Positions 13,586 to 31,237 of a stretch of DNA of 64,000 bases are shown here, in pieces (the first letter of the stretch is position 1; every line of letters starts with the position of its first letter). The notes under the pieces are model-generated. The model ran no database searches. It was not told where the DNA came from and saw only the letters and a list, made by a program, of their open reading frames with translations. The DNA comes from Bifidobacterium asteroides. GTDB taxonomy: Bacteria; Actinomycetota; Actinomycetes; Actinomycetales; Bifidobacteriaceae. The position numbers and the translations under genes are program-made. Where the stretch lies: contig NZ_CP048272.1 in assembly GCF_019469425.1 (NCBI RefSeq), positions 1,364,001-1,428,000 on the forward strand, given 5' to 3'.

Positions 13586-15474
13586 GTATGCATTCCTTCA
13601 TCGGGCCCCGATCAGAAGGACCCGCTCGATCCTGTTCCGGCTCTCATGATAGCGGCCCCCGCCGCCTGGCTGATGGCAAGATGGCATGGGAAAGCGACAG
13701 TGGGCGCAACAAACGATCTGTCTAGCACGGTCAAGACGAATGGCAAAGCCTTACAAACCCAATGAATATGCCTATAATCGCCCCTGTTGCTTTGATATCG
13801 CTCGACAAGGCAATCTCGAAATACGCGATTGCTTCCGAAAACGATTATTGGGCCTCACGATAGCCTATTGACTTTGTCGCCGTTTGCATTCTCAAAAGGC
13901 AACGATCAACGTTCCAGGGATATTTATTTGCCGATCTCCGCTCTCTGAGTTCAAATCAATAGCACCTCCCAGCTGAATTGAATCCAACCGACCTGCTTCA
14001 TTGCCATTGGACTCAACGAGTAGCGAAAGACCTCCCTCTCCTTGAGGGACTATGAGCAAATCGCCGCGTCCTCCAGCGAATATCGTTCCTAGCAAACCGC
14101 CCAAAACCAATCGGCCCAGATTGGTGTGCTCCCCGAATGCAGTCACCTGCAGGCCCTGACCCTGTGCGGACTATCGTTGATCCGCATTGCTAAGCTTGCG
14201 CTAGAGCTGACTGAGGAACCTGTAGCCAGAGGCAGCTGCAGGGCGGGCAGGTTACAGGCAGCCGCTGGTCTTCGAAAATTGCCTAACCTGTACTCTTTCG
14301 AAGCGTCTTCAGATTCTGCGTGCGTAAATTCCAATCTGTAATGGGTTCGCCTACCAGTAGTTCAATGGTTCCAGTTGGCTCACCCAAGGTCTGCCCTGTT
14401 CTGATAGTCAACCGATTTGTTGCCCGTAGTGGCCCTAACCAAAGCGTCGACTCATAAGGGGTGATTGTTCCTATCTCACAGTCATTAAGTTCAACTTCGC
14501 ACTTGCATTGGCAACCCTTGAAGTGCAAAGCCTCGACTGGCAACAAGCTCTCTTCATTCAGCCTTGGATCCAAAGATAAATTCTTAATTCTCGACTGAGA
14601 CCTTGTACCAGCCTCTGCAAGATATAAAACCGACTAGCCTAGCAGGAATCGGGTATATGTCAATACACTGGGCCAATAAGACCCCGACCATCCCCCAGAG
14701 CCCATTCGAGGAACAGGATTTCGCCCGGAAGGACCACATCGGCCTTTTCATCTGGCGACGACCAGCGTTTAATCTCAGTTACCTGCTATCCTGAATTCAG
14801 AAGCAAGATGTTACGCACCGCCAGGACGCCAGATAAAACCCCGCCCGGCAGATAACCGAAGGGCTTGCAATCTCGCGTCATCGAAATTAGAGTGCACCCA
14901 AATGCCCCCCCCTTATGGACAAGAGCGGATTCCCATCATCAGTTCGCTGGATAGCTGAGCCGTCCAATGGCATCCAATAACCACCATCACCAGTTGCTAC
15001 CCAAGGCATCACCAGATGCCCCAATTGCAGGTCAACCACATCAGCTGCCTGCCGTAGAACCATCCCATGAATTCCGTCGGGACTGCAACGCGTACTATGC
15101 AGACCGCTACCAGACCACAGCCCTCGCTCTTCCAACATAGGCAGCCTGCTGCCTGGAATCGATACAGACAGGGAAGACCATGCCTGGCCACATTAAGCCT
15201 TGCCAACTGATTCTAACCGAACGATGGGTGCATGCGGGGCCTGTATCCTCGTAACAGGCTGACCCAACTTCGCAGTGATTCATTTCCGGCCTTCTGGAGT
15301 AATCATCATTTGATAAAGGCAAACTCAACATTAACTAACGATATATATCCTCCCCCCGATTTTCGAGTCCTCAGTTGGCGCCAAAGGATATAATGCTGGT
15401 TACTGTTTTAGATTACTACCTGATATCACTGTAATCAAGACTGACACAGAAAACAGACCAACCCAAAAATCTCT
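13586..15474. other. AT-rich decayed region at the left edge of the island
   Basis: No intact gene recognised. Minus-strand open stretches at 13892-14146 (84 residues, Gly/Leu-rich) and 14283-14573 (96 residues, containing GCQCKCEV) might be pieces of one broken gene but match no family I know. Shorter minus-strand frames at 14887-15331 overlap one another in different frames, as expected of a frameshifted remnant. Base composition falls from GC-rich to AT-rich near 13.7 kb, which I take as the island boundary. I did not find a copy of the tRNA-Arg repeat here. Confidence 0.55.
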
Positions 15475-17106
15475 CTAACTTAGAGGATGAGGTATTTTTT
15501 TGATATTTGCTGTACCTTCATTACCGATGTTGTTATAATACTCAAATGGTCGAGTCATATTTAAGATTCTTTGATTTGACCAGCCAAAATCCAATGGAGC
15601 AAGTCCTGGTGCAATAACTACCGATGATACCAGGTCTAATGCTCTTAACCAGTAAGGTGTAGTTTCACATACAACTACACTAACATTACGACTCTTCAGC
15701 GATTCTAACAAATTTTGAATATCTTCATCTAAAGAAAGCATTGAGATTTCATCATACTTACGAAAATCACAATAAGGCATATTCCAACCTAATATTTTAC
15801 TCAAGCGATCTGTCCATTCAGGCAAGTGAAGCATTGCTGAATGGTCTTCAAGTGTTTTAATGCTCTCATAATTTTGAAGCTCTTTCCAGCGCTGATTATT
15901 TCTGCCGTTTTCAACACGGTCCGGGTAAAAAGCGACAGCTTCCTTCGCTGCTGCCAAAGAGGCATCCTCTATCGAAAAACGAGCAGAAGCACCGATAGAG
16001 ACCCATTCGCGTCCCCTCACCGATGCTACAACGACATAAATGGGAAAATCCGTCGGAATAAGCGATAATGACAGTTCAGCCCGGCAAGCTAAAACCCTCG
16101 GCAACAACGCACACACTTTTTGCATAGAGGTATAGTCAATTTTGTAAGTATTCTGATCAGTGTACCAACAGCAAAGGAAAGCGTCTCGTTCAAGTACCTC
16201 CAACAAACCTGACAAACTTGCAGAACCTAGAGTTCTACCCACAGCACCACCAGATGATGAATTTCTTGACCAAACATGTTTTCCGCTTTCTCCAAAAAAT
16301 ACTAACTCTTCCGGTACCCAGCATTCTTTAAAATCTATGATGTCTATGGCTTTTATCCAATCTATTTCCTCTTGATTCTCAAAAGGCACAAACTGATAGG
16401 CAGAAGGAGAAAGATGGAACTTGCCAGCATCGTCAGGTCTTAGACAATCCTTATGGTTCTGAGCAGCAAAGTGAGCTATCTGTAGTTCGTTTGAAGGGAT
16501 ACAATTAGAATAACGTTCTAGTCCCTCGAGGATGCCTTTACGTTTGACCATATCTCTCGATAATTCTTGCCCTGACCATGAAACTTCAAAAGATCTGGTA
16601 TTAGTTGAAATGTATGTGCTACCTAATAGCATTGGTAGTGAGGAATATTCTGGTTTTTCGTACCAATAATCAGTGAGTAGCCCTGTGGTCGGATTAATTA
16701 GAATATCATCCGGTAATCTTAAAGATTTAATAGGCAAATTGGTATCTGATAAATCTATTCTCTTCGAGATTTCCTGCTGCTTTTTGCTTTCACGGATAAA
16801 TAAACCCTGGCTTATATTTCCAGAGAGCAAATCTACACTCCAAGCCCAACATGAATCGTTTTTGATAACTTCTCTAGCAGCGTGCTGTAATGCATCGCAC
16901 AATCCAGCCCAGAGGAATGTATCATCTTCCATGTCAGAGACTGATTCCCATTGACTGAATGCAGGACCATCAACACGAAAGCGCGATCCTCGTTGGACCT
17001 TAGTGTATAATGCAGCTTCACTATCCGTTAATTGTACGCCCGCGATAACGAGAAGATTCAGAGCTCTACTATACGTCTTAGTGACAATAGAATAATCAGT
17101 GTCCAT
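15475..17106 (-). CDS. YcaO-domain azoline-forming cyclodehydratase of the RiPP cluster
   Basis: 543 residues from ATG 17106 (AGG 7 bases upstream); a GTG at 17148 falls inside a hairpin and is less likely. YcaO ATP-binding motifs are seen as GILEGLERYSNC and GSASLSGLLEVLERDAF, with a conserved C-terminal Pro region ending IPHPLS. It would use ATP to cyclise Cys, and possibly Ser/Thr, of the precursor core to azolines, guided by the leader-binding Ocin-ThiF-like protein encoded at the other end of the operon. Last gene of the cluster, directly after the precursor gene. Confidence 0.88.
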   Translation of the reverse strand: MDTDYSIVTKTYSRALNLLVIAGVQLTDSEAALYTKVQRGSRFRVDGPAFSQWESVSDMEDDTFLWAGLCDALQHAAREVIKNDSCWAWSVDLLSGNISQGLFIRESKKQQEISKRIDLSDTNLPIKSLRLPDDILINPTTGLLTDYWYEKPEYSSLPMLLGSTYISTNTRSFEVSWSGQELSRDMVKRKGILEGLERYSNCIPSNELQIAHFAAQNHKDCLRPDDAGKFHLSPSAYQFVPFENQEEIDWIKAIDIIDFKECWVPEELVFFGESGKHVWSRNSSSGGAVGRTLGSASLSGLLEVLERDAFLCCWYTDQNTYKIDYTSMQKVCALLPRVLACRAELSLSLIPTDFPIYVVVASVRGREWVSIGASARFSIEDASLAAAKEAVAFYPDRVENGRNNQRWKELQNYESIKTLEDHSAMLHLPEWTDRLSKILGWNMPYCDFRKYDEISMLSLDEDIQNLLESLKSRNVSVVVCETTPYWLRALDLVSSVVIAPGLAPLDFGWSNQRILNMTRPFEYYNNIGNEGTANIKKIPHPLS

Positions 17107-17147
17107 TTTGTGCCTGCAAGTAAAGTAACCGGTATTCAAAGAAAACA

Positions 17148-17188
17148 CAGGTGTCCTGCTATTCAGGTTTGAATCAGCAGAACACCTG
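17148..17188 (-). terminator. Hairpin between precursor peptide gene and YcaO gene
   Basis: Arms CAGGTGTCCTGCTATTCA and TGAATCAGCAGAACACCTG pair over about 17 bp with one wobble/mismatch and one bulged base around a 4-base loop. On the minus strand the hairpin is followed by TGTGTTTTCTTTG. Such a structure just after a precursor gene is commonly a leaky terminator or RNA-stabilising stem that makes the precursor mRNA more abundant than the downstream enzyme mRNA. Confidence 0.75.
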
Positions 17189-17226
17189 CAGACAAATAAA
17201 TTCTTACTTATCTATGCTCTAACTGT

Positions 17227-17406
17227 TCACGAAGAAGATGATGAGCAGCAGGATGACGAACAGGACGATGTTGAAGAACACATGTTAAAGGTGAAATTCG
17301 CTACATCGTCATTAGGATCTATGAAATCCTCAACCTCAAAGCTTGACGCTTGAATATCGCGAAGGGCTTTTAAGGCCTGTCCTGATTGTTCTTGTAAACT
17401 TAACAT
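17227..17406 (-). CDS. RiPP precursor peptide, 42-residue leader and Cys/Ser/Thr-only core
   Basis: 59 residues. ATG 17406 is preceded by TGAGGTAAATT, a strong ribosome-binding site. The acidic leader contains FEVEDFIDPNDD, the kind of segment bound by leader-recognition domains in azole RiPPs, and ends NFTFNM. The C-terminal 17 residues are CSSTSSCSSSCCSSSSS: four Cys, twelve Ser, one Thr. All can be cyclised to azoles or dehydrated, as in thiopeptides and goadsporin-like peptides. The exact cleavage site is not visible. The gene lies between the ABC permease and the YcaO gene in the same direction. Confidence 0.9.
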   Translation of the reverse strand: MLSLQEQSGQALKALRDIQASSFEVEDFIDPNDDVANFTFNMCSSTSSCSSSCCSSSSS

Positions 17407-17454
17407 AATTTACCTCACATATAGGGCTGTTTATACATATGGTTCAATAGTTTT

Positions 17455-18195
17455 TCACTTATCTAAGTCAAGTGCTCTAGGAAGAAGAAGACTTAGTGGA
17501 GTGAACCAACATACAATAACTAATCCTCCTTTCAAAAAAGTATTGGCATCTCCAATACCAAAAGTTAGATACTGCACACTGTCAACAAGAGCACGGAAAG
17601 GAGTATAAGGAGCAACCGAGTTAACCCAGGCAGGGAGGAAGGATGACGGAAAAAAAGTGCCAGAACAATACACGAACAATACAACAACAATACTTGAAAT
17701 GGCGATTGCAGCAGGGATTGAGTGCACCCATATAGGAATAATAGAACCGAGTTCAAAGAATATTGAAACACCAAAACATATGGGCAGCAAGGTGAATATC
17801 CACGGACCTGCAGGTTTTATACTTACTACAGGAGTATATAAGACAGCAATTATTAAAAGATATTGTACAATCGATAGCAATAAAGATACACACAAAGCGG
17901 ACAAAACTACTGACAAGCTCGATATAGGCGAATTCCTTAAAACTCGCATCATCCCATTTTCACGCCAAATAGTAAAATTCATCGTGGAATTGAACGCCCC
18001 GATAAAACAAGTGCTAAAGCAAATAACTACTGAAAACAATGAAGTTCGTATTATACCCTGGTTAGCCGAGTTAGGCACTTGGTGATCTAGAACTAATAAC
18101 AGAACAAGTGGCAGAAACACGGAGATACATAGATTTATCCTATCTCGATAAAACGCCCTAAATAATGCTGGCGTAAGCGCTCGAAATGAGTTCAT
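17455..18195 (-). CDS. ABC-2 type transporter permease of the RiPP cluster
   Basis: 246 residues with six hydrophobic segments (starting near residues 23, 52, 98, 133, 165 and 220), the usual layout of ABC-2 permeases; WRENGMMRVLRNSP after the second segment is the cytoplasmic loop found in this family. It overlaps the stop of the ATPase gene by 4 bases, so the two are translationally coupled. It likely exports the mature peptide and/or gives self-protection. It is followed 48 bases on by the precursor gene. Confidence 0.88.
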   Translation of the reverse strand: MNSFRALTPALFRAFYRDRINLCISVFLPLVLLLVLDHQVPNSANQGIIRTSLFSVVICFSTCFIGAFNSTMNFTIWRENGMMRVLRNSPISSLSVVLSALCVSLLLSIVQYLLIIAVLYTPVVSIKPAGPWIFTLLPICFGVSIFFELGSIIPIWVHSIPAAIAISSIVVVLFVYCSGTFFPSSFLPAWVNSVAPYTPFRALVDSVQYLTFGIGDANTFLKGGLVIVCWFTPLSLLLPRALDLDK

Positions 18196-19109
18196 AAGTT
18201 CTCTCCAGATTTGGAATTCGATATTTTCACAAATGCATCTTGTAGTTCGGCAGGATGTGATACTAACCCAGTCAAATCGACTCCGTAAGAAGCGAGCTCT
18301 TGCAATGTTGCTCCTTCATTAACTGTGTATATCAACGCAAAACCGTTTTGCCGTGAAACTGTCTCGACGCTTTTACACTTGGTTATAAAGGCAAAGTCTG
18401 TTTCCCTATATGGTAATGACAATACTGTCTGACTTCTCGTTATTTCTATTAACTCCTTAGGTGTGCCTTCAAAGACAGTCGAACCATTTTGAATGATATT
18501 CACCATATTGCAAAGGTTTTGCGCTTCCTCTAGATAATGTGTCGTATATACGATAGTGGTATTCTCTTCTTGTAGCGATCGCAATTGCTGCAAAAAATCT
18601 ATGCGCGCTTCGACATCAAGTGCAGCTGTGGGCTCATCTAAAAACAGAATTTTAGGATGATTAAGGACTGCCGCTGCTAAAGCAATTTTCTGCTGCTGAC
18701 CACCCGAGAGCAAACGTGCCCTTTGATCTTGAACGTCTTTCAACCCCATACGATTAATTAGCATGTCTACGCGCTTTAAATCACAATTATAGATTCTTGC
18801 CAGAGTTTCCAAGTGCTCTCTAGCAGTAGCTCTGTATATGAAAGCGCCTCTTTGCTCTTGAATACCGATTTCCGCGAGTAACTTGCGGTTACGTGGAAAA
18901 GGTGACATGCCTAAAACTGATATTTTTCCTTTATCTGGTTTTAATGCGCCATATAGGCATTCAATCAAAGTGGTTTTACCAGCTCCATTTTTGCCTAGAA
19001 TACCATAGAAATCACCTTTCTTAATAGAAAAAGACAAATCGGTCAAAACCGTCTTCGATTTATAACCTTTAGACAGAGATTTTACTCTGATTACTGTATC
19101 CTCTTCCAT
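18192..19109 (-). CDS. ABC transporter ATP-binding protein of the RiPP cluster
   Basis: 305 residues. Walker A GILGKNGAGKTTL, Q-loop IGIQEQRGAFIYRATAREHL, signature LLSGGQQQKIALAAAV, Walker B ILFLDEPTAALD, and switch His in IVYTTHYLEEAQ. The C-terminal 80 residues form the regulatory extension typical of drug/bacteriocin exporters of the CcmA class. It pairs with the ABC-2 permease encoded 4 bases overlapping downstream. Probable export or immunity function for the modified peptide; no separate immunity gene, such as a target methyltransferase, is visible in the cluster. Confidence 0.92.
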   Translation of the reverse strand: MEEDTVIRVKSLSKGYKSKTVLTDLSFSIKKGDFYGILGKNGAGKTTLIECLYGALKPDKGKISVLGMSPFPRNRKLLAEIGIQEQRGAFIYRATAREHLETLARIYNCDLKRVDMLINRMGLKDVQDQRARLLSGGQQQKIALAAAVLNHPKILFLDEPTAALDVEARIDFLQQLRSLQEENTTIVYTTHYLEEAQNLCNMVNIIQNGSTVFEGTPKELIEITRSQTVLSLPYRETDFAFITKCKSVETVSRQNGFALIYTVNEGATLQELASYGVDLTGLVSHPAELQDAFVKISNSKSGENL

Positions 19110-19112
19110 ATT

Positions 19113-20138
19113 CTATATTATAAACCATTTTGTGCCAAATACTATTAACATCATCAATAATGTGTAATAACAAATGTTGAGACAATAAATAAGGGGATAA
19201 AGCCAAATAATTTTTTGCATTCTTTTTGAACCCCTAGCCCGAAGTAGTATCCTCAGCCTCTTCTGAGTCAAAATTGAAGGTATATTTTTAGTATCTGTAT
19301 AGATTTCTATTATGCGCAAAGCATCAGATCCCTTACAGGGAATCGTATTCCACATCGATACATATATAGATGTAACTACACATATGGATATAAACCACTG
19401 CGGTGTGCTATTCAAAAAAAATCCCAAAATAATAAGAATGTCGTTCATACAGTAAAGACTCAATGGTCCTGCAGCATAAATCATGATTTGTTCTCCACGA
19501 TCCAGCATTTTGATTGCTGGTAGCAGTGAATAAGGCTTAGGAAAAATGCTGATATGCCCTTCTACGTGCCTAAAGGATCGGACGCGAACAAAGAAATTAT
19601 AAATAGTCAGATGCATACATTCATGTACAAGAAGTGTCAATAACAGCCATAAAAGGCAGAAGCCTGCTGTTATTGCAAGCTTAAGTCTAGTTAGCTTATT
19701 ATAATACAGATTTATGTTTCGAGCCCAAAACAAAATCAATAATAACGAAAAAAAGACCATGCCAATCATTGCTGAGGCCAATACAATATAAGAAAATGGG
19801 TGTGTATTGTATTCAATCTTTTTACCAAACGACTTATTAGTGACCTTCGATATATCACTTCTTGATGAACTCTGAACAGTTGTAACAAGTCCCTTCTTTG
19901 CCAGACTCTGTATTATGATTCTTGACTGGCTCACCGGTTTTCCAAGGTACTTGGATATATCTTCGATCGATAATCCTTGTTTATTAAGCAATTCTAAAAT
20001 TTTGTACTCAATCTCTGACACTCCGAGAAAAAAATTATCACATTGAATTTGATATATGAAACCGTCAGAAGAAAACAACTTATGTACGGTTTGATTCCTT
20101 TTGCAGAACCACTTTGTCCCCTCAGTCAAACTCATCAT
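19113..20138 (-). CDS. Winged-helix/PqqD-like domain fused to M50-like membrane metalloprotease
   Basis: 341 residues. Residues 30-95 look like a PqqD-like or winged-helix domain (VSEIEYKILELLNK...GLSIEDISKYLGKPVSQ). Then come about six membrane segments. The second or third carries HECMH (HExxH zinc motif, near residue 170), and a later GPLSLY and NTIPCKGSDALRI resemble the second half of the M50 site-2 protease active site. It overlaps the preceding gene by 4 bases. The most economical role is removal of the leader peptide during or before export, which is inference; it could also be an immunity protein. Confidence 0.7.
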   Translation of the reverse strand: MMSLTEGTKWFCKRNQTVHKLFSSDGFIYQIQCDNFFLGVSEIEYKILELLNKQGLSIEDISKYLGKPVSQSRIIIQSLAKKGLVTTVQSSSRSDISKVTNKSFGKKIEYNTHPFSYIVLASAMIGMVFFSLLLILFWARNINLYYNKLTRLKLAITAGFCLLWLLLTLLVHECMHLTIYNFFVRVRSFRHVEGHISIFPKPYSLLPAIKMLDRGEQIMIYAAGPLSLYCMNDILIILGFFLNSTPQWFISICVVTSIYVSMWNTIPCKGSDALRIIEIYTDTKNIPSILTQKRLRILLRARGSKRMQKIIWLYPLIYCLNICYYTLLMMLIVFGTKWFII

Positions 20139-21145
20139 TTTATTGCTTCATACAAAACAAAGGACAAATATGCTTCTTCACGTATATCGACAAGCATACG
20201 ATTATTTGTCATATGGAGATACGACCTTGCCAAAGTGGCAACAGCATTAACCCTTGATGATGGTAGCACGAGAGAACCATTCACCAAAAAACTCAAGCTT
20301 CCTCTATCTTGCAGCTGATAAATCTGCTCTTTAAGACCTTGACACTTAACAGCCAATTTTGATAGAAATCCTGGTAATTCATTTATTTCATTCTCAAGGC
20401 AAGCATCAACGTAAGGAACAATTTGATTTTTTACTTGTTCAACTGTTGGTTTTATACTCAGCCTCCCTGAACCAGATACGTACCCTGGCGTTAATTGAAA
20501 CGAATGAACCCAGTGATTGTGATAGCTAAGCAGAAAATTAAGTACTTCTTGAAAGGATTCAAATAAACAAGACACGGTTACGGCCATAATCTGTGCACTA
20601 AGCCCTAGCCTTATAGATCTGGTCCCTAAATTACCAGTTTCGATTAATGATCTCACAAGACATGAGGAGTCATGAAAATGTTGCTCGGACATAGTCATAC
20701 CTTCGATGCCACCATAACGTCCATATTCAGGTTCATAAGTATATTTGAATATAGAATTATCGGGACGAAATCGAGGTTTACCATTTTCATCAGTCCATTT
20801 GGCATACTCCTCAGGAGGATACTCATTGTTGAAGGCTTTTCGATAATATGCTGGATCGGCAAGTTCAGGAGTCGGGTGAAGAGAAGGATGTTGCTTCATA
20901 AAATTCGATATCTCACGAATTAGAAAATCGTGTATTTGATCGTCAAACTCCGGGTTTCTTGATTTCACCCTTAGTCTTACATGTGCACCTTCCAGCCAAT
21001 AATTAATAAAAAACCAAGAAGAAATCATTTTTTTCTTGACTAAATCATCAATTAAATGGAACACACATTCTTTGAGAATATATCGAGCATCCATTCCATA
21101 AAAAATATGATATGCTAGCCACTCATTATTTTGTCTTATATTCAT
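20135..21145 (-). CDS. Thiopeptide-type (SpaB_C) protein, probable glutamate-elimination lyase
   Basis: 336 residues. The sequence opens with a pattern typical of SpaB_C domains (WLAYHIFYG, then SSWFFINYWLEGAHVRLR), has YEPEYGRYGG in the middle and YLHMTNNRM near the C-terminus. The RYGG and LHMxxNR patterns correspond to the elimination half of LanB dehydratases such as NisB, where these residues help expel glutamate to form dehydroalanine. Thiopeptide [4+2] cyclases share the fold but, as I recall, not these motifs. It starts directly after the LanB-type gene, consistent with a split dehydratase pair. Confidence 0.8.
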   Translation of the reverse strand: MNIRQNNEWLAYHIFYGMDARYILKECVFHLIDDLVKKKMISSWFFINYWLEGAHVRLRVKSRNPEFDDQIHDFLIREISNFMKQHPSLHPTPELADPAYYRKAFNNEYPPEEYAKWTDENGKPRFRPDNSIFKYTYEPEYGRYGGIEGMTMSEQHFHDSSCLVRSLIETGNLGTRSIRLGLSAQIMAVTVSCLFESFQEVLNFLLSYHNHWVHSFQLTPGYVSGSGRLSIKPTVEQVKNQIVPYVDACLENEINELPGFLSKLAVKCQGLKEQIYQLQDRGSLSFLVNGSLVLPSSRVNAVATLARSYLHMTNNRMLVDIREEAYLSFVLYEAIK

Positions 21146-21146
21146 C

Positions 21147-23066
21147 TCAGACCTTTCTAAAAGTATGACTTATCCCAAAGATGAATTCTTCGATTCTAGA
21201 GTAATTTTGTTTACCAACATTCATTGAAAGAGACGGATATATTTCTTGCAATATCAAATATTCTGAGTCAGACTGCAGCGAACGCATCAAATAATCAACG
21301 GTATAAATACTATGCATCGTAACATAAATCGGCTTACCTGCCTCTCCTTGATGATTAACTACCTTAATAAAGAACGAGTCAGGTAATCCGTGTTTTGTCA
21401 GAAACTTAAATAAGGCAGAATAAGTACCCGTAAGATCGTCTTCTTCAAGAAAGTCATTAAAATAGATAAGCCAAGATTTTCTTGACAACGCGACATCTCC
21501 TATTGTTATACGTGGGATTTTTACTGCTTTTCCATGAACTGGTTTTAAATTCAAATATTGTATAAAATCCGTCTGAGCTGTATGAGGAGGTGCTATAAGA
21601 TCAAGAATTCTTGTTGTTTCAGGACAGGCGGATAAAATCAAATACCCAGTGTAGCATGGGTACAATTCTTCATCCGAAGGTGTGACGAGAGAAATATGAT
21701 TTTGCTCATGACTCCAACAAACTGATAGGGAACGCAAGTCTAATTGTCTGCCAACAGTGGATTCGTGCCCTTTTTCCCCCGGAAGGTAGATTCTATCAGG
21801 AAATATAGGGGAGTGAATGTTCAAGTTTGATACATTCGAACCTGAGGATAGCTCCACTAATGTAACATCATTTTTTTTAGCTAATTCGTACAATTGTTGT
21901 TTTTCTTCCATTAGATCGTGCTCAAAAAGGTGATCAAATCGGGACAGATCAAAACCAGGTGCGCCATAAATTCTATTAATTAGTAATCCTCGATCTTCAC
22001 AATTGACCTTCTGCGCAAAAAATGATAAGTGAGAAAAACGATAGGTGGGTGGCTTATGACTTTCGTTAAATCTTTGCAGCAACAAAGCTATGTCTAGAAC
22101 ATCTCTATTTGAGCTGTTCAGAGATGCCTCTTTTACTTGATCGCAAAAACGTCTGGAATCTTTGACTCGCTGCCAAGCAGATCCAGGTTGTAACCACTGA
22201 GACTGAGCAAGTTGATTATCAGATATTGATCTAATATTAACTCGCAAAAATGGGTCATAATATTCAGTTTGAAAATCATGTATGAAGCTTGCTGCATTGA
22301 CTAAGTTATCATTAGACATTTCTTTTAATACACCACCCATCACATCTCTTACGGGCTGAGTCGTATCCATAATGCGAACGAACTTTTCCAACAATTGACA
22401 TTGATGTGAGCTTAATTTGGGAAGTGTTTTTTGAATCGAATGACCTTCACTGAATACTGCAACATCTTCATGCACAACAGAACGGGGCAGTTTGGCACCA
22501 TGACACGCAGAAGTATATAGTTGCTCTACTTTTGAGGCAATTTCTTTCATACTCTTAAGCCTTTGTTGACCATGAACTTTGCTAAATTGATTCGCAATCT
22601 GCATATACTCGTTGAGCTGTTGGCCAAGCATTCGTGCGTTCTTCTGTGAGCTACACATTAAATATCTGATGGCCGGTAATCTGCCATATCCGTCAAAATT
22701 GCTGTAAACCATACCATCTAGCTCTAGCAAACCTAGGTGTAGGCAACGCAATAGGACATCCCTAGCAGTCTTGGAGTCCATCTGTGAGGATAATTTGTTC
22801 AAGAGCTCATGGACAGTCATCGATTGATCGTTTAGAATTAAATAAATTTGTCTCCTCATGGCAGAAAGCGGAAATTGCAATAAGGATTCTTCATTCAAAA
22901 CTGAGTCGACTCGTTTTAACGAGTCAAAAAATCTCCAGCGAGATCTCCAAATCTGTAAATAACTACCCTCTGTAATATTAACACCATCAGCTAATCTAAC
23001 AGGGAATGCATCGATAAAGTCCAGATTCTCCTTAATTGAGTCTAGAACACGAGCACATACGTACAT
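21147..23066 (-). CDS. LanB-type glutamylating dehydratase, C-terminal part after frameshift
   Basis: 639 residues as an independent frame. Extending it upstream in the same frame gives TYRSISEPN before MYVCARVLDSIKENL, which continues the N-terminal fragment encoded at 23042-23749 if one base is gained in an A7 run (plus-strand T7 at 23093-23099). The joined protein is about 867-886 residues, the normal size of thiopeptide LanB N-domain proteins, which use glutamyl-tRNA to activate Ser/Thr side chains. Motifs such as RRQIYLILND and the region around SVCWSHEQNHISLVTPSDEELYP fit the Lant_dehydr_N family. An internal start at ATG 23066 is possible but has no clear ribosome-binding site. Confidence 0.75.
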   Translation of the reverse strand: MYVCARVLDSIKENLDFIDAFPVRLADGVNITEGSYLQIWRSRWRFFDSLKRVDSVLNEESLLQFPLSAMRRQIYLILNDQSMTVHELLNKLSSQMDSKTARDVLLRCLHLGLLELDGMVYSNFDGYGRLPAIRYLMCSSQKNARMLGQQLNEYMQIANQFSKVHGQQRLKSMKEIASKVEQLYTSACHGAKLPRSVVHEDVAVFSEGHSIQKTLPKLSSHQCQLLEKFVRIMDTTQPVRDVMGGVLKEMSNDNLVNAASFIHDFQTEYYDPFLRVNIRSISDNQLAQSQWLQPGSAWQRVKDSRRFCDQVKEASLNSSNRDVLDIALLLQRFNESHKPPTYRFSHLSFFAQKVNCEDRGLLINRIYGAPGFDLSRFDHLFEHDLMEEKQQLYELAKKNDVTLVELSSGSNVSNLNIHSPIFPDRIYLPGEKGHESTVGRQLDLRSLSVCWSHEQNHISLVTPSDEELYPCYTGYLILSACPETTRILDLIAPPHTAQTDFIQYLNLKPVHGKAVKIPRITIGDVALSRKSWLIYFNDFLEEDDLTGTYSALFKFLTKHGLPDSFFIKVVNHQGEAGKPIYVTMHSIYTVDYLMRSLQSDSEYLILQEIYPSLSMNVGKQNYSRIEEFIFGISHTFRKV

Positions 23067-23749
23067 ATTTGGTTCGGAAATAGAACGATAGGTTTTTTTG
23101 AATCATTGCTCTTACCTTCATAAAACTCAACGAAACCGACGGGTGTAAGCCAAGAAAATGGGCTTGTTTTAGTAGCCGCCCTAACCAGATACTTGATTAA
23201 GTCACTGGATGCTCTTCTGTCCCTAGCTTTAAATTCAATACCGTTCACCATCTTTTGCTTTAGTCTTTCTACACCGTAATAAAGCGTAGGCGACGACATA
23301 ATCACTGCATCGTATATGCTGGGGTATTTATCAAGTAATTTTATGGCCACTCTTTCTTCACGATGAGCTTCAGTATCAAACGCTGAGACAGCATTTTTTT
23401 CTTGATCTTTTGAAGCATTTATAGCTTCTAACAAGCTAACAACTTTTATTTGAGTAGATTTATTCAGAATACCAAGATTCTCAGTGAGTAGCTCTGTATG
23501 CTGGTGTCCGATGCCTTTATTGACTTGTCTTTTTAATTTTATTAATTGCTTTCGATGGTCACCTTTTGCAACTGAGATTTCTGCCTGTAAAGAGCATACG
23601 AGTTCTTCAGAAGCCTGTGAGACACGCTCATCCAGCTTAAGTTGCCTGTTCGATAGTAACGTTAGCTGGTCGCTTGACAGTTCATCAACAATGCTTATAG
23701 GTAAACCTCCGATGCGGATTTGGCCATTTTTTTCATAAATGAAGGACAT
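23042..23749 (-). CDS. LanB-type glutamylating dehydratase, N-terminal part, frameshifted
   Basis: 235 residues from ATG 23749, one base after the SagB-like stop; an in-frame start at 23806 would overlap that gene by 56 bases. The start gives an N-terminus containing RIGGLPISIVDELSSDQL, the usual opening of this family, and AATKTSPFSWLTPVGFVEFY matches the conserved R/KTSPF segment. The frame closes 16 codons after the A7 run (TCA AAA AAA CCT). A one-base shift there gives TCA AAA AAA ACC TAT and enters the downstream 639-residue frame. The heptamer A AAA AAA in this phase is a classic -1 slippery sequence. Confidence 0.75.
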   Translation of the reverse strand: MSFIYEKNGQIRIGGLPISIVDELSSDQLTLLSNRQLKLDERVSQASEELVCSLQAEISVAKGDHRKQLIKLKRQVNKGIGHQHTELLTENLGILNKSTQIKVVSLLEAINASKDQEKNAVSAFDTEAHREERVAIKLLDKYPSIYDAVIMSSPTLYYGVERLKQKMVNGIEFKARDRRASSDLIKYLVRAATKTSPFSWLTPVGFVEFYEGKSNDSKKPIVLFPNQICTYVLVF

Positions 23750-23750
23750 A

Positions 23751-25310
23751 TCATTCACCCATTCCTGTAAAATTAATGGCAGTAAATCTTCCCGTTTCCG
23801 CATCATGGCCCAACAGTATAATTATTATCGGTTCTTTGCCATCGTCAAGAGCTAAAATCGTTTTCAACTTTACTGCATTAAATCCTAGCAACGTTCCTGC
23901 TGAAATTCCTAAGTCTGTCGCCTTTGTATGGATAATTTGACTAAGCGCTGCGCATTGAATTGCTATCTCTCTAAAACCTTGAACTCCGTGATGCTTAGAA
24001 TAATTTATGAGTGAGCTTGAGATTGTAATCATAGAATCAATCCGCTCCAAGTCATAATTCTGCCCCAGAAGTATATTAGACAGCTCATGATGGGAAATAG
24101 TACTGATTTCTGTGCAGTTAAATCGAGAATCTAATCGATACACACCTTTATCTAGACCATTAATATTCACTGATAAAATATGCATTTCCACAGGATTGGA
24201 GAAACCCATTTTTAATAATTTTTCCTGTCCGCGTACTGCTGAGGTCAATATTCCAATTAAGTCGTCATATTTCATACTTTCACCAGTAAAACGGCCGAAA
24301 GAAGTCTCGCGTTTTTTTAAAATCGCGGTTAGCTTGTTAGCCGAAAAATCAGAAATCCATGAAATCCCTGAAAACTCCAACGACTGTGTTAGTTTTTGTG
24401 TCTGCTTTTCTTCACAGACAGCTGCACGCTGCATCGCTTTTATTGTGTTAAATAGAACAGTCTTTTGGCCCCTTTGCCATGACTCAATTCGACACCAATT
24501 GGTCGGACAAAGCTTAGATTTTGAATCACTCTCCAAACCTATTCCAATTAGAGCATAGATGCCTTCTTCTAAAGGGTTAAGATGCAAAAGCTGAGCAATA
24601 GACCACTCGCTAACATTAAAAGCAATATGAAAAGGGCATCTTACAGCGTCCATGGAGTCGACAAAACTCGCGAGAAAAGTTCCGACATCCATGGTTGAAA
24701 CGAGATAGCTAAAATCCACATACTTATACGAGGAAATCCAATAATTGATGGCAACGACCAATACATCATCGAATATTGGAAGTTTGTCTTCAATTTCTTG
24801 CATAATTACGAAGGAATAATCTCCCATGCCTAAACAACCCCAAGTATCCTGTCGAGGAAGGTATATATACAAACCGGCTGGAAGTTGCTTACTCCCGCGT
24901 GTGGCGCGATAGATTGTCAGGGGATATCTTCCCCCACCGGAGGCCATTCCACGTTCGTCAAGATATTGTGAAGCATATCTTAGATTATCCTTTGAACGGT
25001 ATGGCACAATATCCAAATGGAACCCTTGAATTCCGATCGTGTTGTGTAAACTGTAATCTATACAGATTTCAGGATCTACACATCCAGATATATTGGTTAA
25101 ATGATCTGTAGGCTGCAGGGGATATTGTTTGCACCCGATATAGTTCTTTTGATTTAATGGCGCGAGTAAACCCGATGGCATACTATACCCATTCTTGGGC
25201 ATAGTTATCTCTGCGCGATGATATATTAATTTACTGTATTCCTCAGCTACCCTTTCATTTGGTAGTTCATCCCATTCGTGTGCCGTCAGTTGTTTAAACA
25301 CCTTAATCAC
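23751..25310 (-). CDS. SagB/ThcOx-type FMN azoline dehydrogenase
   Basis: 519 residues with the two-lobed nitroreductase layout of thiazole/oxazole dehydrogenases. ASGGGRYPLTIYRATRG (near residue 120) is the conserved SagB core that contacts FMN, followed by GLYIYLPRQDTWGCL. A second related lobe covers about residues 320-519, ending IIIILLGHDAETGRF. It would oxidise azolines made by the YcaO enzyme to aromatic thiazoles or oxazoles. The catalytic Lys-Tyr pair of ThcOx proteins could not be assigned with certainty by eye. Its start overlaps the stop of the Ocin-ThiF-like gene by 4 bases. Confidence 0.85.
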   Translation of the reverse strand: MIKVFKQLTAHEWDELPNERVAEEYSKLIYHRAEITMPKNGYSMPSGLLAPLNQKNYIGCKQYPLQPTDHLTNISGCVDPEICIDYSLHNTIGIQGFHLDIVPYRSKDNLRYASQYLDERGMASGGGRYPLTIYRATRGSKQLPAGLYIYLPRQDTWGCLGMGDYSFVIMQEIEDKLPIFDDVLVVAINYWISSYKYVDFSYLVSTMDVGTFLASFVDSMDAVRCPFHIAFNVSEWSIAQLLHLNPLEEGIYALIGIGLESDSKSKLCPTNWCRIESWQRGQKTVLFNTIKAMQRAAVCEEKQTQKLTQSLEFSGISWISDFSANKLTAILKKRETSFGRFTGESMKYDDLIGILTSAVRGQEKLLKMGFSNPVEMHILSVNINGLDKGVYRLDSRFNCTEISTISHHELSNILLGQNYDLERIDSMITISSSLINYSKHHGVQGFREIAIQCAALSQIIHTKATDLGISAGTLLGFNAVKLKTILALDDGKEPIIIILLGHDAETGRFTAINFTGMGE

Positions 25311-26743
25311 ATTCTCTCTTCTGTCAACGGTGCTATAGCACAGGCTTTAATCCCAACCTTATTTAAGGAATATAAATTCAAATCAGCAGACATGAATACA
25401 TTGCTAAGAGTATTATTAACTTTATTTTTTTGTATTTGAGTAGAAGCCTTACAATCACGTGGGATTACACCAGAATTGTATGCAATATAACGCTCTAGGC
25501 AATCTTCTAACGATTCGATTTTAGTTTGCCCTACACCGACAATTGTGTTGTTTATATTTAACAGTGAGCACCAAACTTGAGGCACCACTTCCTGCATATA
25601 GACTCTTTGAATTGATTTTTTATGCATTTTACAGTATTGTTCAAATACTGCTTTAAAGGGCTCCTCAAGTTCTATATTCATCGGAGCAAATTTAAAATCA
25701 CTCATCTTAATAAGAGAACGAAAATACCTATAAAGAGCATCGCGAAAGGCATCTTTCTCAGTGTAACCCAGTCCGATTGTTAACTGTCTTTGGTTACTAG
25801 GAAACACGCCCCCAGAACGATAATGACCATCTACATCCCGACGACACATCGTATGTTGGTACGTTTCTTCATAAGGCTTCTCATGCAGTTTTAAGCTTAA
25901 AGCATTAAACGCAGCATTGGCTCTCGCCTCGGCTAGAGATTCTACACTCCACCCATATGCATAAGTGATTTGACCGTTTAACCGATATTTAACTTTGCTG
26001 ATTTGTAAATAAGTCTGGTTTATATCGTCGTCGGAGAAAGATTGCAGCAGCCCGGAGAACGGATCCACAATACCAGTCACTCTTACGCTAAGTTCTTTCG
26101 CACGGTAGTGCAGTTGATCACTATCTTGCGTGCTGCGTATTAATAATTTTCCTTTTTCAGCATCATTCCCAGCGTGCGGGTCACAAATCCAAGCAATTTT
26201 GTGTCCAATAGCTTCACCAGTACTTGCATCTACCACAATAATACCGTCATTGGTTTCCGAAAGAGTGGGATCAACAAAGAGTTTGAATAAATCAAATGAG
26301 GCCACTATTCCAGCTATGTGCCATATTCCAGGCGGGATAGATTCGTCTTTATCTTCACGACTGGAGTCATTTATATATCTTGAAATCTCAGTGTTTTCTG
26401 TATTGTTGGCAACGCTGAGTATCGCATCTTTAAGGTGACATGAAGTTGAAGACCGCATTATAGGACCGATAATTATCTTGTCAATCAAAGTGAGTATTGG
26501 TATAACTAGAATCGTTTCGGGCAGTGCGTCTATAAACTCAGAAACCAAGCAAAGATTCTCTATCTTATATTGAAAAATATAAATACTAGTGTCTGAATCA
26601 CCCTGACCTATGCAAGTCCTATCTGCGGGATTGCTTATACGCTTTACATACCCCAAAGATCCTATCCCATTTTGCACTAGCGACTTAGACACAAATTGTG
26701 CAAAAGGTGATTCACTATCTACTACAATACGCTGTCGTGTCAA
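25307..26743 (-). CDS. Ocin-ThiF-like leader-binding protein with degenerate YcaO-like domain, main part
   Basis: 478 residues from a TTG codon that is probably internal: the frame stays open upstream to about 26910 and joins the 80-residue N-terminal fragment after one added base in an A7 run. The joined protein is about 612 residues. The middle has IIIGPIMRSSTSCHLKDAI, the shape of the ThiF-like segment of F proteins. The rest (ELSVRVTGIVDPFSGLL, then YGWSVESLAEARANAAFNAL) resembles YcaO N-domains without the ATP-binding glutamates. It probably delivers the precursor to the YcaO enzyme. First gene of the operon together with the 80-residue fragment. Confidence 0.72.
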   Translation of the reverse strand: MTRQRIVVDSESPFAQFVSKSLVQNGIGSLGYVKRISNPADRTCIGQGDSDTSIYIFQYKIENLCLVSEFIDALPETILVIPILTLIDKIIIGPIMRSSTSCHLKDAILSVANNTENTEISRYINDSSREDKDESIPPGIWHIAGIVASFDLFKLFVDPTLSETNDGIIVVDASTGEAIGHKIAWICDPHAGNDAEKGKLLIRSTQDSDQLHYRAKELSVRVTGIVDPFSGLLQSFSDDDINQTYLQISKVKYRLNGQITYAYGWSVESLAEARANAAFNALSLKLHEKPYEETYQHTMCRRDVDGHYRSGGVFPSNQRQLTIGLGYTEKDAFRDALYRYFRSLIKMSDFKFAPMNIELEEPFKAVFEQYCKMHKKSIQRVYMQEVVPQVWCSLLNINNTIVGVGQTKIESLEDCLERYIAYNSGVIPRDCKASTQIQKNKVNNTLSNVFMSADLNLYSLNKVGIKACAIAPLTEERM

Positions 26744-26901
26744 GTTGTTAAAAACTCTATATGGCGTATCGCAAAAATGTGCTGCAAGCCGAATTTGATT
26801 TGCATAATTCTGACGAATACGCGATGGGATACTCTTTGTATTAAAATCCTTTATAAGAACGATGCAATCACGTTCTATAAGTGATGTCAGTAGTCGTAGA
26901 A

Positions 26902-27144
26902 CTATACTTTGATTTTTTTGTTTACAAAACTAAGAATTGTGGAAATGTTATTATTTCCTCTCAAGAATGGCACTAAGGCGCGAAAAAGTTGGTATTGACC
27001 AATGCCTCTAATTTCAAACTTGGCTCGATTTTGACCAAGAACAAAGAGTACCCCTTTTTCAGTGCGAGAAAACATAACATCATCACGCAGCAGCAGTGTG
27101 TCTGATTGTGAAATTACCATGTAAAGTCCAATTCTTTTATACAT
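26902..27144 (-). CDS. Ocin-ThiF-like protein, N-terminal fragment (frameshifted)
   Basis: 80 residues from ATG 27144. It shows DDVMFSRTEKGVLFVLGQNRA, FEIRGIGQYQLFRALVPFL and NNISTILSFVNKK, the typical N-terminus of Ocin-ThiF/F proteins, which contains the winged-helix leader-recognition region. It ends KIKV at a TAG. The alternative frame through the AAAAAAA run (26913-26919) continues as NQSIVLRLLTSLIERDCIVL and on without a stop into the 478-residue frame. So this is the 5' end of one gene broken by a missing base. An ATG 24 bases downstream (MVISQS) is an alternative start. Confidence 0.7.
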   Translation of the reverse strand: MYKRIGLYMVISQSDTLLLRDDVMFSRTEKGVLFVLGQNRAKFEIRGIGQYQLFRALVPFLRGNNNISTILSFVNKKIKV

Positions 27145-28251
27145 CGAGTATCAACAAAACAGAACCCTTCCTGAATATAATAGCATAGTAAAAACAATAG
27201 TTGCATTTTCTCCCGTAAAGGTTGACGTGCAATTTTGATTTGTCAGATTCAGTCTCATACACAATCCAATGACAAAGCGTGAAAGACTCTGCACGTGGTA
27301 ACAAGCAGTCTATCAGCAAGTTGTATTTCGATAATATTTAAATTATTAAAATTCTCCCTAGATGGGAGAAATGGGATCGACTTAGCCCTATATTGAACAG
27401 TTCATATGCTCTACTTAAGGTTTGTAAATGCCCAGCGAGCTGTAGCGCGATACAACAATTATACGGATTATTAGGTGCAATATGAGAATCTCTTCAACCA
27501 CAATCGCTCCACTGGCACAGAGCAGATTAGTCAGACTTTAGACATACCAAAAAGAAAGACCTGGCTAGTCAGGAATAATAGACTGCCAAAATAGGAAAAG
27601 ATGTACTTGCTATTTACATTCCTGAAGTGTAAGAGCATGAGCCGCTCATGCACGCTATCTTATGTCAATGACCTGAACCGCTATACCAGCCACTCACACT
27701 ATATTTTAAAATAATAACATATATTGTTTTACGTTCATCTGATGTTCGACGGAGCATTAGATTCGTATTCATTGCATGCGACGAGTGCAAAAACCTTTGG
27801 GCAAAAAAATAGTTCTTGCAGCGTACTGATTGAGTATTTAGATAATTTCATGAAACGAGGGCGAAAGAGTAGGGAATTTGCAAGCAGTGTCACACGGACC
27901 TTAGCTACTTACGCAATCTACAGTTTTAGGCAGTTGCTCAGTGGACGCAGTCCGTGCTGATACCATTTGAGCCGTCCACATGATGCTTAGCTTGGCATTT
28001 GCCGTCTGCCCTGTCCATAACTCTGGCTCTAATCCGCTGCCAGTCGCGCAGCAATCGCTTGTGCTTGCCGGAACTCTGCAATTCTGCTGCATTCACTTGA
28101 ATTGGCACTCAAAGGCAGATGTGGACGCGTGGCCTGACTCGTGTCTAAATGTTGAGCTTGTGATGCAGCCAGGCTGGGTTGAAAATACAACCAGGCTCAA
28201 ATTATCTGCAAAGAACCTTTCAAGTCAATATATTATTTTTGCTTTGTTCGA
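27145..28251. other. AT-rich non-coding or decayed stretch upstream of the RiPP operon
   Basis: Probably includes the operon promoter near 27150-27350, where the minus strand is rich in TATTAT/TAATTT elements, but no -10/-35 pair can be named with confidence. The plus-strand frame at 27724-27960 (78 residues) matches nothing I know. The stretch from about 27940 to 28092 holds an HNH endonuclease remnant, listed separately. The rest shows no gene. Confidence 0.5.
27940..28092 (-). pseudogene. Truncated HNH endonuclease remnant
   Basis: Reading the minus strand gives KHKRLLRDWQRIRARVM followed by DRADGKCQAKHHVDGSNGIS and TDCVH, then a stop. This lines up with the intact HNH endonuclease at 32673-32936 (RHDRLPHDWQLIRAEVK, ARANGRCQATHHARGCNGIG, TDCDHIIPG). 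The catalytic His-His region is cut off after DCVH and the start is not preserved. It marks a second, older phage-type remnant outside the tRNA-flanked element. Confidence 0.7.
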
Positions 28252-28776
28252 TCAGCGCACAATCAGTTTTGCGCTTATCTTAACAAAATTATCTTGCTCG
28301 TTGAGCAATGGGATAACATCGTTGATTCTCGCATGTGCTGGATACAAATTTCGCAATGCCATCAAAATACTTACAGCCACATGTACGCTTAAAAGCACGA
28401 TTACAACGCTTCCAACTCGATGAATCCATGGCGATAGGTATGGTGACCCTGGCAGCTGAACAACCATTACTATCAGAGTTATTACTGAAACAAGAACAGC
28501 GCTATATGCCCCCGCGAGAATATGTGCTATAGAAGAATCAAACAACCACCTCTCAGTTGAAGTTCTCAATCCCTTATCCGCTTTAAAGATTTGTCTCCAG
28601 TTTGCAAGCTGACTGAACGTAGTGATCAGTGCACCTGCCAAAATCCCCATCACAGCAATCAAGGTATCGCAAAAATCAAAATGGAGTCTTAACAGATGCG
28701 CAGCTATTCCTGCCGACAGCGGCACTATATAGACAACAAATATCTTCAAAATAGAACGTCGTACCTTTATGGGCAA
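28252..28776 (-). CDS. Small integral membrane protein, four predicted segments
   Basis: 174 residues, TTG start at 28776 with GAAGAG upstream. Hydrophobic segments lie near residues 10-30, 36-55, 88-112 and 120-145, separated by a polar loop (NWRQIFKADKGLRTSTERWLFDSS). No catalytic motif is visible and I do not recognise the family. It is the only frame of normal appearance between the RiPP operon and the phage-like element, so it may be a leftover accessory gene. Function not assigned. Confidence 0.5.
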   Translation of the reverse strand: MPIKVRRSILKIFVVYIVPLSAGIAAHLLRLHFDFCDTLIAVMGILAGALITTFSQLANWRQIFKADKGLRTSTERWLFDSSIAHILAGAYSAVLVSVITLIVMVVQLPGSPYLSPWIHRVGSVVIVLLSVHVAVSILMALRNLYPAHARINDVIPLLNEQDNFVKISAKLIVR

Positions 28777-30150
28777 GTGTATTCTCTTCAGAATCGACTA
28801 ACTTTCTTTAGGATCGGGAGTATAGAAATGTAGCGATTTCCACTGTCTGCGGTTTATCGACATTGGAACCATTGAAATTTCCATGGAACTCCTTCCTCAA
28901 CGGAGCTATTTAATAACAACTTATTAGCGATAGACTTGTGTCGTAGAAAGATTACAATCGACATTAAAGGCAGGAAGATTATACTTGCCATCGTCGGCAG
29001 CAATCAACCTCGGGTTATTCCCGGCATCCTTTTATAAGTCTTTTTAGCCGACCCATCTGACATGGGATAAGTGAACAGCTAATCTACGGTTTCTGCAGTC
29101 ACCGTCTTGATTTTGCCATTTTCCTCGTAAGTAATTCCACCGTTATTTATCATCTTCTTAGACAATTACAAGCTGTCCATAGGTATCATCGCAGCCACAT
29201 CCTGAACGCCTTGCAGCCGACTGAGACTCAATTTTTTTGCACGGCTTTAATCCACTTTTGAGCACTTTATTGATTCATATTCGCCATGCTGCACTAACGC
29301 TAGACACGGTCAGCGTTAACTTCTAATTCTCTCGTGAGCCGAAACCAGACAACGAATGCATTCCAAGCTCGATTTTCTGAGGCTTAGCAGATGCCGAAAT
29401 GCTATCGGACCTATTCCGATAAATAACCGGAGTGGTAGAAAATCTATACCATTCCCCGTTCGCTACTGTTTCAGAATGATCGTCTTTCGAAACTTTCGAT
29501 ATTGATAGGTGATATTTGTACGAGATATATTGTAAAAGGTTTTCACCCTGCGCAGATCTACCATTCACCGTGCAAGCCATGTAGCAAACATTTTTATCGG
29601 GCTCATTTTGTTTGGGTTCAGGGAAAGACATACGTACTTCATATAGACTCGACGCGGCTTTCTTACTTATATTTTCTGGCTCGCCGAATCTGTCGCGTAT
29701 AACCAGTCCTTGTCGCCATAATGACCAAAAGTGATGCTGGCGACAAGTACCTTACCGATTTTCTGGCAAGCTTATACGCAAAAACAAGGAGTCCCTTTTA
29801 AATCCTCCTCGTCAGTTATCAGCTGCAAGTCTTCCGGGTTAATAAAAGCAGATGCTCTTCCCATTACTGTGTCATCAACTCAATTATCTATGCATATATG
29901 AAATCTTCCAGCTCTGTCCAGCAAGTTGACCTGTACACATGACCTTACCATTTTCCAGTCTCGACCTTATAAAGACAGTATAAAAGCAAATCACTCATGC
30001 GATAGGCTTCCTTCCTATCTAATTTGTGTCAACAAAGATTGACACCAACAAGAGCAATCACTGGCTCCAAGAATTTAGAATGGCCGGACATCTTTGCCGA
30101 CTCCTAGACTAAAACTAACTGTATTCATAATACATGACCTAAGACCAGTA

Positions 30151-30162
30151 GGGGGGGGGGGG
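30151..30162. repeat. Homopolymer tract of 12 G
   Basis: Twelve consecutive G on the plus strand inside AT-rich, non-coding sequence. Tracts of this length are prone to slipped-strand length change and are used as phase-variation switches in some bacteria, including pilus loci of bifidobacteria. No intact gene begins close downstream, so a switching role here is not supported. Confidence 0.8.
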
Positions 30163-30878
30163 TCATGCCTACGAAATATGCAACATCGACTGTCAAATCT
30201 GCCCTAAAACTACATCTTTCGCAACTCAGTCATATATTGCTCTCGCTGCACCCGAAATTCAGTAACCTCTCGATTAGCTATACAGCTCTAGAATAGCTGG
30301 TAGCCGACCGATAATCACCAAAGACTCCTGAGAATAGAGACACAGGGGACCAATATGCTACACAGACAATACCGCGGTACACGAATAGACGTTGTCAGTC
30401 AAAGCGAACAAAGCGCGCTTCACAGTAAATCAGCATTAGCTCGGAAGACTGCCAACCCTGTGGTGAATGATCAGTATTCTAGGTCGAAAATTCACATTCC
30501 ACTGGAATGTCTGCACGCTGCAAGATATCAGTCCAGGCGGTCTGGATGGTATATCGCCCTAAGCGTGCAACTCGCAGACGAATCCCTATCTAATAATGCC
30601 AAACTCTCGGAAAATAACCCCATACCCACCCTACAAAGCGTTTCGTCGAAACTTTCCATGCCTTGCTTTCCAGAACCCGAATCCTCTGCCCGAGCCGTCA
30701 AAAGTTGCACACCGTAAAAGCCGGAATTATGGATGAATTAAAAACTGATGAGGTTATCCCATAATCTCAGGCAAGGGCAGGACCTGGCTGGTGCTGTACG
30801 GCGGTCGAATAAACGACGAGGCCGTTGATAGACTGTTGTGTGGCGTTTACGCCTCTTTTCACGGTGCAGATAAGTCTA

Positions 30879-30892
30879 GGGGGGGGGGGGGG
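30879..30892. repeat. Homopolymer tract of 14 G upstream of the SHOCT gene
   Basis: Fourteen consecutive G lie 43 bases before the TTG start of the SHOCT-domain gene and 7 bases before a 13-codon open frame (ATG 30900). The position between promoter and start would allow length changes to alter expression. This is inference; the gene downstream is itself frameshifted. Confidence 0.75.
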
Positions 30893-30935
30893 AGAGAGAT
30901 GAACGCAACTCGTACCATGGCAGTGGAGGCTTACG

Positions 30936-31237
30936 TTGACGGCTAAGAAAATTGAGCCAGGCAATCATTCCGTTATCGTCGATGGCCTCGACTTCCAATG
31001 GTCTGTGCAGATAGACAATGCCTCTGTTTCAACATCAAGCAAATTTGTTACTGCAATCAACTCCATTGCCCGCCAGCATGTGGCTATGCATCCCAGGTTC
31101 CAGAGACTCAGGAGAGTGACGACACAGCTATATCATCAGTATTCGACCAGTTTGCCCATCTTGCAAGCCTCCACGAGTCAGGCGCCCTGGATGACGAAGA
31201 ATACACAGATACAAAACACCGACTGCTAAACATCTGA
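30936..31237 (+). pseudogene. SHOCT-domain protein gene, frameshifted
   Basis: A TTG start at 30936 with GGAGG 7 bases upstream opens a frame reading KFVTAINSIARQHVAMH at its centre, a stretch often seen before SHOCT domains in actinobacterial proteins. The SHOCT domain itself (DQFAHLASLHESGALDDEEY, then TDTKHRLLNI) is in a different frame and stops at 31237. The shift falls between about 31070 and 31110. Joined, the protein would be near 100 residues, normal for this type. The function of such proteins is unknown; many are phage- or island-borne. Confidence 0.65.

Follow-up and report, generated by a model that had tools for sequence, protein, structure and literature searches.

Thiopeptides and goadsporin/spongiicolazolicins are given, in the accessible part of PMC10676384, as the two main classes of ribosomally synthesized and post-translationally modified peptides (RiPPs) that bear both azoles and dehydroamino acids. 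Coryneazolisins, of types 1 and 2, were named by Cox et al. 2015 (PMC4603692), the accessible sections of which also describe incomplete clusters and signs of transfer; within the literature searched, the term appears in this paper only. Here we analyze a minus-strand RiPP operon (27144 to 15475) in a 64,000-nucleotide stretch of the Bifidobacterium asteroides contig NZ_CP048272.1 (hereafter, the window). We are fairly confident that this operon represents an actinobacterial family of azole/dehydroamino-acid RiPPs in a reduced, horizontally acquired form, with a predicted logic close to that of the coryneazolisins. The genome is one contig of 2.23 Mb.

As far as the accessible text of PMC4603692 goes, coryneazolisin clusters resemble the window in having a split lanthipeptide-like dehydratase, an azole cyclodehydratase and a Cys/Ser/Thr-rich core, and in lacking a [4+2] enzyme; the likeness is to this published description, as distinct from a sequence comparison with the Corynebacterium clusters. 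The coryneazolisins, themselves uncharacterised, appear to be the closest described class. As described there, they possess a discrete D (YcaO) protein together with a second D protein that is fused to a C protein, whereas the window has a single YcaO in its cluster and genome. Their core consists of 10 Cys/Ser/Thr residues, an Ile and a further 5–7 Cys/Ser/Thr, in contrast to 17 Cys/Ser/Thr residues without Ile in the window. Goadsporin, whose cluster includes an N-acetyltransferase gene and which is compared here by description only, resembles the predicted window product in being linear and in combining azoles with dehydroalanine by means of a split LanB, a YcaO and a B protein; it has a fused cyclodehydratase and just two clusters in the portion of PMC4603692 seen. 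In the window F is a separate gene, and the roughly 190 residues ahead of the YcaO domain might or might not make its cyclodehydratase a fused one. Thiopeptide clusters share YcaO, SagB, a split LanB and an ocin-ThiF-like F protein with the window, but carry a [4+2] pyridine synthase beside the elimination protein, and no such synthase was found in the window cluster or genome. An earlier, sequence-only reading of this DNA had proposed a thiopeptide or goadsporin-type pathway; the second half of that proposal stands as to logic, with coryneazolisin being closer, and the first had to be given up. Dehydrazoles were considered as well and rejected: according to the part of PMC10676384 available, they need a DUF4135 LanM-type dehydratase (PF13575), which was matched by none of the 10 operon proteins at an expect value (E) of 0.01, and the dehydratase here is of LanB type.

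The operon genes overlap or are closely spaced, and the features, in window coordinates, are:

26902..27144, minus strand: N-terminal piece of the F protein, leader-binding part of an ocin-ThiF-like F, 80 amino acids (aa); matches Actinomyces oris F residues 11-54 (E 9.7e-6)
26913..26919, minus strand: run of seven A (A7, coding strand) at the F frame change; downstream frame -1
25307..26890, minus strand: remainder of the F protein, open in the other frame; A. oris F residues 103-444 align at 26809-25865 (E 3.5e-15)
23751..25310, minus strand: SagB-type flavin mononucleotide dehydrogenase (azoline to azole); TIGR03605, 86.3 bits, cut-off 78.4; overlaps F by 4 nucleotides (nt)
23042..23806, minus strand: N-terminal piece of the LanB glutamylation protein; PF04738, 26.7 bits, cut-off 28; A. 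oris LanB residues 1-216
23093..23099, minus strand: A7 run (TCA AAA AAA CCT) at the LanB frame change; downstream frame -1
21147..23066, minus strand: C-terminal piece of the LanB glutamylation protein; A. oris LanB residues 226-857 (E 4e-67)
20135..21145, minus strand: SpaB_C elimination-type protein; PF14028, 133.9 bits; TIGR03891, 83.1 bits, cut-off 48.45
19113..20138, minus strand: M50-type membrane metalloprotease with an N-terminal winged-helix/PqqD-like domain; HExxH, and an Asp downstream of it, unchanged in 13/13 aligned proteins
18192..19109, minus strand: ATPase of the ATP-binding cassette (ABC) exporter, DrrA-like; TIGR01188, 181 bits; PF00005, 111.6 bits
17455..18195, minus strand: ABC-2 permease, DrrB-like; PF01061, 58.5 bits
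17227..17406, minus strand: precursor, 59 aa, leader motif SFEVEDFID, last 17 residues all Cys/Ser/Thr; precursor profile E 2.2e-10
15475..17148, minus strand: second-type (downstream) YcaO with its active-site motifs retained and PHPLS at the C-terminus; PF02624, 155.5 bits

The azole and dehydroamino-acid chemistry and the gene-by-gene roles proposed earlier hold, given the PF02624, PF14028 and TIGR03605 matches, the DrrAB-like exporter and, for LanB, homology to A. oris; both LanB pieces match PF04738 (Lant_dehydr_N) below its cut-off (22.8 and 26.7 vs 28 bits). PF02624 and PF14028 each have a single match in the whole genome. The operon is not "complete", as had been claimed: F and LanB are frame-split and the YcaO normally found beside F (YcaO1) is absent.

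Relatives of the SpaB_C protein place the locus in a wider family. With a four-row alignment (A1) as query, relatives of at least 269 bits were found in 18 of 393 other genomes of the class and 5 of 395 other genomes of the order; all other matches scored at most 125 bits, several lying in adjacent pairs. The supposition that such clusters are rare among bifidobacteria was borne out, the window's genome being the only one of 189 in its bacterial family with a match (0/188 others); its YcaO was found in 1 of 27 genomes of the genus. A phylum sample of 396 genomes returned solely members already seen. We compiled 26 other clusters, made up of 23 loci from class and order genomes plus L003, L004 and L005; 24 of these entered the annotation and tree, and two were added later. 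The gene set common to the relatives comprises F, YcaO1, SagB, LanB, SpaB_C, M50 (22/24 annotated loci), an ABC exporter, a Cys/Ser/Thr-rich precursor and often a second YcaO (YcaO2). The window combines a SpaB_C of the HMxxNR clade with SagB, LanB, F, an exporter and an FEVxD-type precursor, and departs from the relatives in lacking YcaO1 beside F. The A. oris plasmid cluster NZ_CP116225 (L003) and the order-level locus L075 (genome G622) share F, SagB, LanB, SpaB_C, M50, precursor and YcaO2 with it; unlike the window, both have YcaO1, unbroken F and LanB, and a locus guanine-plus-cytosine content (GC) of 0.67 and 0.51, respectively. Identity to A. oris is 36% for SpaB_C and 29.4% for SagB, and the A. 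oris cluster has four precursors. Pattern scans gave 13 matches on genome contigs, one of them a relative, and 23 on viral contigs, none of them confirmed.

The wider family is of a known kind, and uncharacterised: no characterised product was among the literature matches listed, and no paper on the cluster type in A. oris was found in the literature searched. For bifidobacteria, no paper on it was among the matches listed from a search outside which many subscription papers lie; a honeybee survey (PMC10673953) reports RiPP clusters in bee-gut Bifidobacterium among others, and in the part of it available does not state their type. The window extends a RiPP type that has been little studied (linear, with azoles and dehydroalanine and a core of Cys/Ser/Thr alone) by a variant with YcaO2 only, and brings it into a bacterial family whose 188 other species genomes searched lack it.

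The precursor, which the sequence-only reading had listed without giving its place, was located with a profile of 24 relatives' peptides from 12 of the 24 loci, window excluded. It was the only strong match among 1678 window segments (next E 0.049). With a leader-only profile it still ranked first among these segments, though at a weak E of 0.035 (the next being 3.2). Its 17-residue core holds 4 Cys, 1 Thr and 12 Ser. The relatives' precursors share a leader bearing a motif of type T(F/L)E(V/I), and their C-termini consist almost entirely of Cys/Ser/Thr; L069, L070 and L081 encode theirs in the same position as the window. The filter used for leader-motif precursors found none in the other 12 loci (L005, L062-L068, L074, L078, L080, L082), and a plasmid search with the precursor gave one match at chance level (E 1). 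In locus L004, the Streptomyces NBC_00316 plasmid cluster, the likely precursor (plus strand, 5251-5424 of the locus) is missing from the record's gene table, with a hypothetical protein annotated over it on the opposite strand.

The family SpaB_C proteins form one clade (support 99/98), separate from thiopeptide-type proteins, in an unrooted tree in which row L051, a misframed translation outside this clade, was disregarded. The window protein keeps HxRxR, RYGG and HMxxNR, and HxRxR, [RK]YGG and HMxxNR are kept in 18/18 family members. We take HxRxR and HMxxNR, following work on NisB, to be the elimination site. In seven adjacent thiopeptide-type SpaB_C pairs, HxRxR or HMxxNR occurred in none of the downstream ("second") members. 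The pyridine synthase model NF045556 (cut-off 325 bits) was passed by 5/5 downstream pair members tested, with 370–418 bits, and by 0/4 upstream members; the window protein scored 49.5. Other similarities weigh against assigning elimination to this protein. A profile of the family SpaB_C proteins favours TsrE, for which a structure is solved (E 3.9e-12), and the pyridine synthase TbtD (6.6e-11) over 9g04 (1.6e-9), over 5ehk, a lantibiotic dehydratase (1.1e-8), and over NisB (1.3e-4); the tree sets the family beside pyridine synthases (96/93), and each of the 18 members has an NF045556 match with E of 0.001 or below (best 1.8e-32), the bit score being shown for the window only. The elimination call consequently rests on motifs and cut-offs. 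These similarities would fit a true thiopeptide cluster with the single SpaB_C acting as pyridine synthase, a reading that we consider extremely improbable and reject, given the window's NF045556 score, the kept elimination motifs, the one PF14028 protein in the genome and the two SpaB_C proteins in the thiopeptide-type pairs examined.

The retained YcaO groups in a clade of four YcaO2 rows (100/99) and keeps 47/63 conserved columns; about 190 residues precede its YcaO domain, F being encoded by a separate gene. Because its branch is very long (2.94), which counts against our reading, the placement is less sure. YcaO1 is present in 25 of the 26 other clusters, the 26th (G719) being interrupted by a contig end, and YcaO2 in 16 of 24 tree loci and in G489. 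The single-YcaO clusters L004 and L071-L073 retain YcaO1 and are the reverse of the window. In most relatives YcaO1 occupies the F/SagB junction, where the window has its 4-nt overlap; L076 and L077, in which YcaO1 is divergent from F, share the overlapping junction. No YcaO1 remnants were found in the genomic island that carries the operon, matches outside the kept YcaO reaching only E 0.6 or worse. Since the second YcaO is isolated from the first here, how the two YcaOs share the work becomes testable.

Both frame splits coincide with A7 runs. The N-terminal piece of F stops directly after its run, and in tblastn searches with A. oris F and LanB the homology switches frame near 26913-26919 and 23093-23099, by -1 in both cases. 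Among the relatives, F was recovered as a single open reading frame (ORF) in each of 20 loci, and LanB likewise in each of 24. TIGR03693 (ocin_ThiF_like) matches F of 4/4 relatives scanned, each below cut-off; the window F pieces had no match in a family scan that included this model. A PDB search with the C-terminal LanB piece gave 0 matches.

The breaks may be real one-base slippage mutations which, together with the loss of YcaO1, left a recently inactivated locus without a product. We regard this as a serious possibility, short of probable: both breaks are of the same -1 type at A7 runs, YcaO1 is gone, and the region 27145-31284, searched with the relatives' ORFs, gave one 18-residue match only (E 0.009). 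The split genes, however, retain a share of conserved columns (F 7/9 and 21/36; LanB 16/22 and 43/65) similar to that of unbroken SagB (43/72), YcaO (51/78) and M50 (9/17), with SpaB_C and ABC at 43/51 and 56/63, and coding base patterns continue beyond both breaks, so any loss would be recent. Retention in SagB, YcaO and M50 is itself lower than in four relatives tested alike, a strain on our preferred reading. Alternatively, F and LanB could be intact in the cell and YcaO1 alone truly missing, if the assembly is one base short at both homopolymers. We hold this to be only slightly less likely than recent inactivation. Such errors would show mainly in the island, since just two A/T runs of at least seven are listed outside it in the window (12422, 32638). 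Against them, 11 of the 13 such runs in operon genes, including two of eight, sit in unbroken frames, and a 41.6-kb backbone comparison with one relative (G019) showed no clear mid-gene frame break. Its 41,590 aligned columns contain 21 gaps, of which 11 have lengths not divisible by three. Most lie between genes or are compensated; one sits 18 nt into an ORF from its start, and three, incompletely compensated, fall close to the 5' end of ORF 57375-58529. For GC-rich DNA the assembly seems sound, but long A runs are too few there for a verdict.

Transcriptional or ribosomal slippage on the A7 runs might also yield enough full-length F and LanB for the locus to work with YcaO2 alone. LanB carries an in-phase A AAA AAA heptamer, the downstream pieces are well kept and the F/SagB overlap is as tight as in L076/L077. 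We nevertheless think this unlikely, as the F run lies in a non-canonical phase, F and LanB are unsplit in the relatives and no downstream structure exceeded chance at either run (z -0.05 and -1.22); a programmed frameshift with a stimulatory structure was rejected on the last ground. Taking the assembly at face value, the pathway has probably been crippled or else depends on YcaO2 as its sole YcaO.

If our preferred reading of a reduced family locus is correct, the pathway, every chemical step of which we infer, would proceed as follows. F would recognise the FEVxD-type motif of the leader, bind there and present the core to YcaO, which would convert Cys and some Ser/Thr to azolines, to be oxidised to azoles by SagB. 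LanB would add Glu from tRNA to the remaining Ser/Thr, and SpaB_C would eliminate it to give dehydroalanine and dehydrobutyrine. The M50 protease would then cleave off the leader at the membrane, after which the DrrAB-type exporter would release a linear peptide. Since the searches revealed no [4+2] pyridine synthase, we do not expect a macrocycle, and any product would likely be a linear azole/dehydroalanine peptide made from the 17-residue core. We consider quite improbable a fully working, naturally minimised system in which YcaO2 does all heterocyclisation, full-length F and LanB arise by slippage on the A7 runs, nearly all 17 core residues become azoles or dehydroamino acids, and the donor is an unsampled low-GC actinobacterial lineage.

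The M50-type protein is the probable leader peptidase, and its winged-helix/PqqD-like N-terminal domain suggests that the protease may recognise the leader by a domain of its own. Peptidase_M50 was matched by 11/13 aligned M50 proteins and PqqD weakly by 3/13 (best E 0.012). The window protein itself matches neither model; it matches helix-turn-helix-type models and DUF742, and weakly the epipeptide metalloprotease model NF058609 (41 bits of 225).

The setting of the operon is consistent with transfer, and two further features are needed to describe it:

13681..31284, strand not applicable: island with the operon; similarity to genus relatives stops at 13680-13682 in 5/5
36231-36305, minus strand: tRNA-Arg; a 37-nt exact copy of its 3' end lies at 31378-31414

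That the operon lies on AT-rich DNA is confirmed by its GC of 0.387 vs 0.606 and 0.629 in the flanks; the three parts of the island have 0.504, 0.387 and 0.439. Similarity breaks off at the left edge in all five relatives fetched. Its resumption on the right was seen in the two relatives whose stretch extended that far: in L017 (G019) at tRNA-Arg (36220), with an additional 130-bp match at 31285-31414, and in L018 at 31285, inside phage remnants ahead of tRNA-Arg. The tRNA-Arg gene and the 37-nt copy (31378..36305) bracket phage or satellite remnants, with a capsid match (PF05065, 57.9 bits) and primase-polymerase and HNH matches slightly under cut-off. Composition and hotspot together argue, with the same fair confidence as our reading as a whole, for a foreign operon acquired horizontally at a variable site near tRNA-Arg. 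Since its third-codon-position GC is 0.28-0.38 and the relatives' loci have a GC of 0.51-0.77 (24 loci measured), the donor is not among the lineages seen. A promoter scan was uninformative (33 found vs 40.1 expected; terminators 15 vs 10.0 expected).

At the same hotspot, G019 carries other genes (L017 1710-18181), which read by eye as a pair of ABC exporters, a regulator of the AraC type and a protein of 1254 aa. Upstream of the window operon, 27145-31284 is gene-poor. Its largest ORF judged by eye as perhaps real (28252-28776) encodes 174 aa, is membrane-like with a weak NrsF match, and is possibly an immunity protein or unrelated. The same stretch contains poly-G tracts of 12 and 14 at 30151-30162 and 30879-30892, which are possible phase-variable or error-prone sites.

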